DNA of 64,000 bases, taken from NCBI GenBank assembly GCA_016200085.1, contig JACQFL010000008.1, forward strand, positions 1 to 64,000, written 5' to 3'. Position numbers and translations under genes: made by a program. The DNA comes from Candidatus Rokuibacteriota bacterium. GTDB taxonomy: Bacteria > Methylomirabilota > Methylomirabilia > Rokubacteriales > CSP1-6. The first letter of the stretch is position 1. Every line of letters begins with the position of its first letter. The notes below the pieces were generated by a model. That model was not told the DNA's origin, did not search any database, and worked only from the letters and a program-made list of their open reading frames with translations. This document shows, piece by piece, positions 13,137 to 14,379 of this stretch.

Positions 13137-13460
13137 ATGCTGTACATCGTCGAGTCGACGAAGCCGCTCGAGGCGGTCGTCACCAGTCTGGCGGAAGCCG
13201 TGGCTCGTCACAAGTTCGGAATCCTCGGCGTGCATGACCTCAGGCAGACGCTGGCGAGGAAGGGCGTGGGTGCTCGAGGCCAACCTCGAGGTCTCGACGG
13301 CGCTGCCATGTCGGATTTCCGTCTACACCGAAGGTGATCGAACGAAGCTGGCGACCATCAAGCCGACGGTCATGCTCGCCCTCTACCCGAACCCCCGAAA
13401 CCCGTCGCCGAGGAGGTCGAGGCCACCCTGCTCGCGATCATGCAGGAAGCCGCCGGGTAG
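13137..13460 (+). pseudogene. DUF302-family protein, frameshifted
   Basis: The first frame gives MLYIVESTKPLEAVVTSLAE and RHKFGILGVHDLRQTLARKG, the well-known start of DUF302 proteins. Homology then moves to a second frame (STALPCRISVYTEGDRTKL, ATIKPTVMLALYP) and finally to a third (PVAEEVEATLLAIMQEAAG, stop at 13458-13460). At least two frameshifts are needed, and roughly 15-20 residues between KKG and the LPCRISVY segment seem lost. A GGAAAGGGG site precedes the ATG, so it was once a real gene. DUF302 proteins are small and of poorly known role. Confidence 0.75.
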
Positions 13461-13506
13461 GTCCCGCGGTATCATGAGGCGTCGCGATCGCGCGGCAGAG
13501 GGTGCC

Positions 13507-14379
13507 ATGAGCCACGTGCGCTACATCGACAAGACGCGCGACTACTATCGTGGCGTGGGCTACGACCGGCCCTACCAGTGGGCCCACTTCGACGACATCC
13601 CGTTCGTGCGGCTGGACAAGCCCCTGTCTGACAGCCGGCTGGGCGTGGTCACGACCAGCGAGATGGCGCTCGTCGACGTCCCGGGCATCTGGGACGACAA
13701 CCCCGGCTCCGACGTCTACGCGCTGGCGACCGACACGCCGATCGAGCGGCTGTGCACGAAGAAGGACTCCTACGATCGACACGCCACCACCCTCGACGAC
13801 GTGAACGCCTACCTGCCGCTCACGCGGCTGGCCGAGTGCGTCGCCGCCGGGCGGCTTCGTGCCCTGGCCCCGCGCTTCCAGGTGATCTACTCGCAGTACA
13901 GCCAGCGCAAGACCACGACCGTCGACGCGCCGGAGATCCTCCGTCAGATGCGCGAGGACCGCGTCGACGTCGCCGTCCTCACCGCCATCTGACCCGTGTG
14001 TCACCAGACCGCCAGTCTGGCGGCCCGGCATCTCGAGGCCAACGGCATCCCGACGGTCGTCTTCGGCTGCGCCCGGGACATCGTGGAGTGGTGCGGCGTC
14101 CCGCGCTTCGTCTTCAGCGACTTCCCGCTCGGCAACCCGACCGGCTGCCCGTTCGACGCCGCGATGCAATCCGAGGTGGTCGAGCTCGGTCTCCGCGCGC
14201 TCGAGACGGCGTCGGCGCCGGGCACGACCGTGGTGAGCCCCCACGAGTGGAGCCCGGACCACTCCTGGAAGGAGCGCGTCTTCACGGAGGCGCAGCCGTT
14301 CCTGTCCGAGGAAGCGACGGAGAAGTGGATGAAGCGGAAGCAGGCCTACCGGGAGCTGCGGGCGACGGGACAGGTGTGA
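13507..14379 (+). CDS. PrdB/GrdB-like selenoprotein (in-frame TGA = Sec162)
   Basis: Selenoprotein B family (glycine/sarcosine/betaine/D-proline reductase-like), 290 residues if the TGA at 13990-13992 is read as selenocysteine. Upstream and downstream parts are in the same frame: ...DRVDVAVLTAI-U-PVCHQTASLAARHLE... The UxxC redox pair (Sec162, Cys165) and the conserved PVCHQT, GIPTVVFG, VPRFVFSDFPLGNP segments run straight across the TGA, so a real stop would remove the most conserved half. A hairpin meeting the bacterial SECIS pattern follows. The protein likely performs a thiol/selenol-based reductive reaction; there is no PrdA or other reductase subunit next to it, so the substrate is unknown. 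Automatic pipelines would split it into two genes. Confidence 0.85.
14009..14023 (+). promoter_or_regulatory. Candidate bacterial SECIS hairpin
   Basis: CCGCCA (14009-14014), loop GTC, TGGCGG (14018-14023): a perfect 6-bp stem. The apical loop starts 22 nt after the TGA codon and begins with G, within the general bacterial SECIS rules (loop roughly 16-37 nt after UGA, a G among the first two loop bases). A second, competing hairpin CCAGAC/GTCTGG (14004-14020) is also possible. Confidence 0.6.

Follow-up and report, generated by a model that had tools for sequence, protein, structure and literature searches.

A PrdB-like selenoprotein gene hidden as two open reading frames in a Rokubacterial genome with no PrdA match

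The window analysed here, a 64,000-nucleotide stretch from the genome of a Candidatus Rokuibacteriota bacterium, carries a PrdB-like gene that is interrupted by a single in-frame TGA. Upstream of it in the window lie genes for hydantoinase A/B, an oligopeptide-type ABC transporter, a PaaA/PaaC-like protein and an MFS transporter, and the two ORFs scanned on its 3' side gave no Pfam match. The features of the locus, with the evidence for each, are:

13507-14379, + strand: PrdB-like selenoprotein gene of 290 residues, with its stop codon TGA at 14377-14379 (reading frame, homologue alignment, PrdB family match)
13990-13992, + strand: in-frame TGA, selenocysteine 162 of a UxxC motif, U162-P-V-C165 (TGA or Cys in homologues)
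14004-14020, + strand: SECIS-like hairpin, CCAGAC / loop CGCCA / GTCTGG (hairpin folding, Sec versus Cys copies)
13993-14376, + strand: C-terminal half past the Sec codon, called with table 11 as ORF 13996-14379 (homologue alignment, dN < dS)

The frame is open from the ATG at 13507 to the final stop apart from the TGA at 13990-13992 (...VLTAI-U-PVCHQT...), and ORF calling with table 11 cuts the gene into 13234-13992 and 13996-14379. The 290-residue read-through product contains U162-P-V-C165-H-Q-T, and the homologue alignment, in which 27 columns are invariant, covers the halves on either side of the TGA. In comparison with five Rokubacterial relatives, dN was 0.26-0.34 and dS 0.46-0.83 before the TGA, and 0.21-0.29 and 0.52-0.85, respectively, after it; third-position GC was 0.95 on both sides. 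The first-pass annotation had read the same frame through the TGA as TAI-U-PVCHQT, and this reading was borne out in the form of one 290-codon gene with a UxxC motif. Judged by sequence comparison, 13507-14379 is thus one selenoprotein gene hidden as two ORFs. As a separate observation, a small gene directly upstream (13138-13460) looks frameshifted; its piece at 13234-13401 matches DUF302 (E 1.6e-6), the piece in the other frame has no match by itself, and the gene may be decayed or mis-assembled.

In a whole-genome search, 44 of 60 genomes, host included, gave a match to the protein, and the matches listed all contain a TGA save three fragments that end short of residue 162. In the relatives that were read out, TGA occupied the UxxC position without exception (32/32). 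Among 80 named loci, which are the best 80 of 568 confirmed stretches and whose TGA/Cys ratio is therefore not a census, the codon for residue 162 was TGA in 69 and Cys in 11, Cys being the sole alternative to TGA seen there in homologues. The homologues run on past this position, which answers the alignment check that had been suggested at residue 162. The 80 loci span Rokubacteria, Chloroflexota, Myxococcota/Deltaproteobacteria, Actinomycetota, Hydrogenedentota, and Alpha-, Beta- and Gammaproteobacteria, and these matches indicate that the group is spread widely over several phyla of uncultured bacteria. One Sec copy (L112) comes from a metagenome bin titled Bordetella parapertussis; it clusters with another Betaproteobacterial bin, and the title looks mislabelled.

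The loci were placed on a quick tree of 98 rows (the 80 named loci, the window, 12 relatives, two plasmid Cys homologues and three PrdB), in which the warning "long branches meet" was raised for the PrdB outgroup. The tree holds at least four switches between Sec and Cys, and it divides the PrdB-like proteins of Rokubacterial relatives into three or more separate subfamilies. The window row falls in a starred clade of six together with Rokubacteria rows; the host, as had been supposed, belongs to a non-clostridial lineage.

The host genome, assembled to 3.57 Mb in 57 contigs at 94.6% completeness, encodes the machinery needed for selenocysteine decoding, the presence of which had been named as a check. 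Genes for tRNA-Sec (C54:9397-9490, 69.8 bits), SelA (C54:10955-12307, 587 bits) and SelB (C54:12343-14226, 363 bits) adjoin on one contig, and SelD is encoded elsewhere (C12:115796-116740 of G000, L159; 335 bits). The host SelD gene also contains an in-frame TGA and is itself a selenoprotein gene. Across the 48 of 80 named loci that entered the selA survey (all 11 Cys and 37 of the 69 Sec loci, with Cys locus L148 left out), selA scored above cut-off in 33 of 37 genomes with Sec loci versus 2 of 10 with Cys loci.

Downstream of the TGA, a loop of CGCCA (14010-14014), with a G as its second base, is flanked by the arms CCAGAC (14004-14009) and GTCTGG (14015-14020). Counted from the TGA, the distance is 11 nt to the stem and 17 nt to the loop, which fits the usual range of bacterial SECIS elements. 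The 6-bp hairpin noted in the first-pass annotation is therefore present, although its stem starts 11 rather than 22 nt after the TGA, and its loop begins with C-G and not with G. Taken alone, the window hairpin does not rise above chance, since an equally long stem arose somewhere in 17% of synonymous shuffles (10% when only Watson-Crick pairs were allowed); a stem at the same place arose in 0.6%, and the MFE fraction was 0.139. Single-sequence hairpin strength was consequently rejected as a criterion for SECIS, as it did not exceed the synonymous shuffles. At the Rfam cut-offs the window had no match to a SECIS family, its sole match being a tRNA.

The significance of the hairpin lies instead in its conservation across copies. 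All six pairs form in 64 of the 69 Sec copies and five pairs in the remaining 5. Among the 11 Cys copies seven retain five pairs, three retain four, one retains three, and none retains six. The 3' arm contains a serine codon (U+8) that reads AGT in 66/69 Sec copies and AGC in 11/11 Cys copies; at their other serine positions these Sec genes rarely use AGT (57 of 902 codons), and in 12 window ORFs it makes up 3 of the 234 Ser codons. The second stem pair is T-A in 14 of 32 relatives, all of one subfamily, versus A-T in the other 18, and two Sec copies (L127 and L142) have a T-T mismatch there. On average the hairpin tracks Sec or Cys in 3.5 of four independent pairs and never the opposite, four pairs being too few for significance. 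The window loop, CGCCA, differs from the usual CGTGA. The SECIS check that had been suggested thus yielded a SECIS-like hairpin that is kept with Sec and degraded with Cys. Beyond the unexceptional lone hairpin, the atypical loop and the lack of an Rfam SECIS match, we found nothing that opposes Sec decoding.

The best curated family for the protein is PrdB (NCBIfam TIGR04483; 93.9 bits, E 1e-26), with a score below the equivalog cut-off of 300. GrdF (NCBIfam) scored 37.9 bits, UGSC (NF041046) 17.9 bits against a cut-off of 125, and Pfam GRDB (PF07355) 17.3 bits against a gathering cut-off of 22, so that of the initial label "PrdB/GrdB-like" the PrdB part stands, whereas GrdB is the weaker match and falls below its cut-off. 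The Sec and Cys columns align with the canonical UGTC of clostridial D-proline reductase PrdB, a histidine follows the UxxC, and alignment gave 26-30% identity to the plasmid-borne PrdB of Peptoclostridium, Terrisporobacter and Enterococcus. Unlike PrdB, the protein has UPVC in place of UGTC, lacks the GGGG stretch and is longer at the N- and C-termini, and, in addition to the low TIGR04483 score, it belongs to a host that is not clostridial and has no PrdA. It shares the Sec in UxxC with GrdB, GrdF and GrdH (protein B of glycine, sarcosine and betaine reductase), to which NCBIfam E-values of 1e-6 to 8e-10 indicate distant homology. However, the GrdB models (431-435 positions) exceed it in length by about 140 residues, the host has no GrdE-type subunit, and the protein has U162-P-V-C165-H-Q-T where GrdB has the motif UxxCxxC (PMC13188914). 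The UGSC-family selenoproteins likewise have a UxxC and an unassigned function, the match to them being a weak one.

The predicted structure is good (pLDDT 85.9), but it says little about function: a sequence search of solved structures found no PrdB or GrdB relative (best E 0.27), Foldseek gave no significant match to the model (best E 9.5e-3), and a fold search gave middling Z-scores, at most 9.0, the matches being periplasmic-binding/LacI-type and Rossmann-like folds.

Genes of this kind are already known, since PrdB-labelled UxxC selenoproteins have been published since 2005. The Sargasso Sea survey listed 42 such genes in that year (PMC1088965), and the Global Ocean Sampling survey of 2008 reported 235 Sec and 110 Cys sequences (PMC2398784). 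The two accounts describe the sequences as abundant, with Cys homologues, and assign them to proline reductase (PMC1088965, PMC2398784). Going by these published descriptions, they very likely represent the same broad family as the gene in the window; the PrdB passages of the two papers do not discuss a missing PrdA or the Rokubacteria. Selenoproteins are on record in the phylum, as one Methylomirabilota genome from a metagenome has 63 of them (PMC13188914). A literature search, made mostly without subscription papers, returned nothing on a stand-alone PrdB-like group in Rokubacteria or on its missing PrdA, and the group without PrdA seems to have been little discussed.

PrdA (TIGR04480) had no match in the host genome, and neither had the component-B family PF09338 of pyruvoyl-type, GrdE-type subunits; both models matched both control plasmids, the PrdA of which falls within PF09338. 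The lack of a PrdA partner, which had been claimed for the neighbourhood, accordingly extends to the host genome as assembled. Among the 60 relatives PrdA never exceeded its cut-off, and weak matches appeared in 3. GrdA also had no match in the host genome, in a search in which no positive control rang either. Among 18 other relatives searched for PF09338, 11 had matches, and the 7 that had none retain the PrdB-like gene. In those 11 no PF09338 match shares a contig with a strong PrdB-like match, a comparison limited by contig breaks, and 8 weak GrdB-like TGA matches have a PF09338 match no more than about 1.1 kb away. Since GrdB-like genes adjoin them, those PF09338 subunits would have partners of their own, and Sec-containing two-subunit Grd-type systems apparently coexist with the stand-alone group in Rokubacteria. 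PF09338 stands beside TGA-containing GrdB-like genes on G007:C11, G010:C83, and G028:C119 and C144, and further pairs occur on G001:C196, G014:C144 and G008:C322.

In Terrisporobacter and Enterococcus, prdA adjoins the PrdB gene. No pyruvoyl-type subunit is annotated next to the plasmid Cys homologues of Roseomonas and Haematobacter, which carry the label "glycine/sarcosine/betaine reductase selenoprotein B family protein". On the Peptoclostridium acidaminophilum plasmid EAL2_808p a gene labelled prdB (L156:7016-7729) has no prdA annotated beside it.

Clustering of neighbour ORFs over 98 loci yielded no fixed partner gene, so the comparison of neighbourhoods across related genomes that had been suggested at the outset ended without a constant neighbour. 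The largest cluster, which we read as CoA-transferase-like, occurs at 24 of the 98 loci, at 14 of them within 3 kb; the names of the remaining clusters are likewise readings of their sequences. A Pfam scan covered 63 of 117 neighbour ORFs, mostly the nearest, from 24 loci of the clade. CoA_transf_3 was found there, and at 4 of the 63 ORFs it was the commonest family; the families listed were the first 25 of 55, so that one with a single member could have escaped notice. Directly upstream of the PrdB-like homologue, locus L083 has a pyridine nucleotide-disulphide oxidoreductase according to Pfam (L083:357-1790), and a 90% identical counterpart is present in L087 (L087:171-1550), the gap to the homologue being 54-59 nt across both. 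This gene is a candidate electron donor. As clues to function, the neighbours are weak.

What the protein does must be approached through its better known relatives. In D-proline reductase, PrdA holds the substrate on its pyruvoyl group, and the attack on the alpha carbon is ascribed to the Sec of PrdB (PMC10298544). A proline-specific reaction by the host protein is unlikely because the PrdA that forms the Schiff base is missing. FarB, a GrdB relative from the fluoroacetate reductase operon of Synergistota, has a Sec that is thought to act directly on the polarised C-F bond, and its partner FarE is described as lacking the cysteines for pyruvoyl formation (PMC10838667). By its published description, FarB thus offers a precedent for action without a pyruvoyl group, although, unlike the host protein, it still has its FarE partner. 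The missing PrdA, taken together with the FarB precedent, leads us to favour selenolate attack, resolution by C165 and re-reduction by a dithiol.

We hypothesize, with a probability of roughly 85%, that the locus encodes one Sec-decoded selenoprotein, which is related to the D-proline reductase subunit PrdB but stands alone and works by a selenolate mechanism. Sequence comparison supports decoding of the TGA at 13990-13992 by the host SelA, SelB, tRNA-Sec and SelD, aided by the hairpin in the coding region; the protein itself would work without a pyruvoyl subunit. The U162 selenolate would serve as nucleophile on a small substrate, attacking either a peroxide or oxidised sulfur species or, like the proteins of the PrdB/GrdB/FarB group, a carbon bond that is polarised. 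The product would then be resolved by C165 through a Se-S bond, and a cellular dithiol donor (thioredoxin, lipoamide or a flavin disulfide reductase) would restore the reduced state. The protein is most likely a selenolate/thiol reductase with an unassigned substrate. With respect to the stand-alone reductase originally proposed, the absence of a partner subunit holds for the host genome, and the reductase activity is what we infer.

Three other readings have to be weighed against this one. That the TGA is a true stop, a sequencing error or a sign of decay, leaving a 161-residue protein and a remnant, could draw on the splitting of the gene by standard ORF calling and on the frameshifted look of the small gene upstream. 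The comparison already contradicts it, and we give it hardly any weight: the same codon recurs in all the relatives read out and in 69 of the 80 named loci across several phyla, dN stays below dS past the TGA with third-position GC unchanged, and the host has the Sec machinery. A pyruvoyl-type subunit, distant or missed, might alternatively serve the protein from elsewhere in the genome as PrdA serves PrdB. The 94.6% completeness of the host genome leaves room for a missed partner, and 11 of 18 other relatives do have a PF09338 subunit somewhere. Still, we consider such a subunit improbable, because neither PF09338 nor PrdA turned up in a host search whose two control plasmids gave both, because the PF09338 matches of the relatives keep away from contigs with strong PrdB-like matches and in 8 cases lie near GrdB-like TGA genes, and because 7 of the 18 keep the PrdB-like gene with no PF09338 at all.

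A more serious competitor is a general thiol/selenol redox protein, acting on peroxide, disulfide or oxidised sulfur and PrdB-like in fold only. UxxC is a typical redox motif, the lineages of many hosts are usually regarded as aerobic, and both the absence of PrdA from the host genome and the disulphide oxidoreductase gene upstream in L083 and L087 would suit such a protein. However, the 27 invariant columns amount to strong conservation outside the motif, and this, together with the recurrent CoA-transferase, acyl-CoA and transport neighbours, suggests a specific catabolic substrate, which makes general redox function a real possibility but one that we would not back. Compared with these, the stand-alone PrdB relative with a selenolate mechanism remains the reading that we prefer.

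Standard ORF calling hides the gene as two fragments, and the contrast between the hairpins of Sec and Cys copies offers a clean control, provided by nature, for how bacterial SECIS elements function in uncultured lineages. The group is named after proline reductase, yet lacks the subunit that enables proline reduction. A wider proposal, which we put forward tentatively and hold to be rather unlikely, is that these proteins form a widespread single-subunit class related to PrdB, which carries out selenolate reductive cleavage of imported environmental substrates with neither a pyruvoyl/GrdE-type subunit nor Stickland coupling. If that were true, several subfamilies of the class would exist in Rokubacteria alone, and its carriers need not be anaerobic fermenters.
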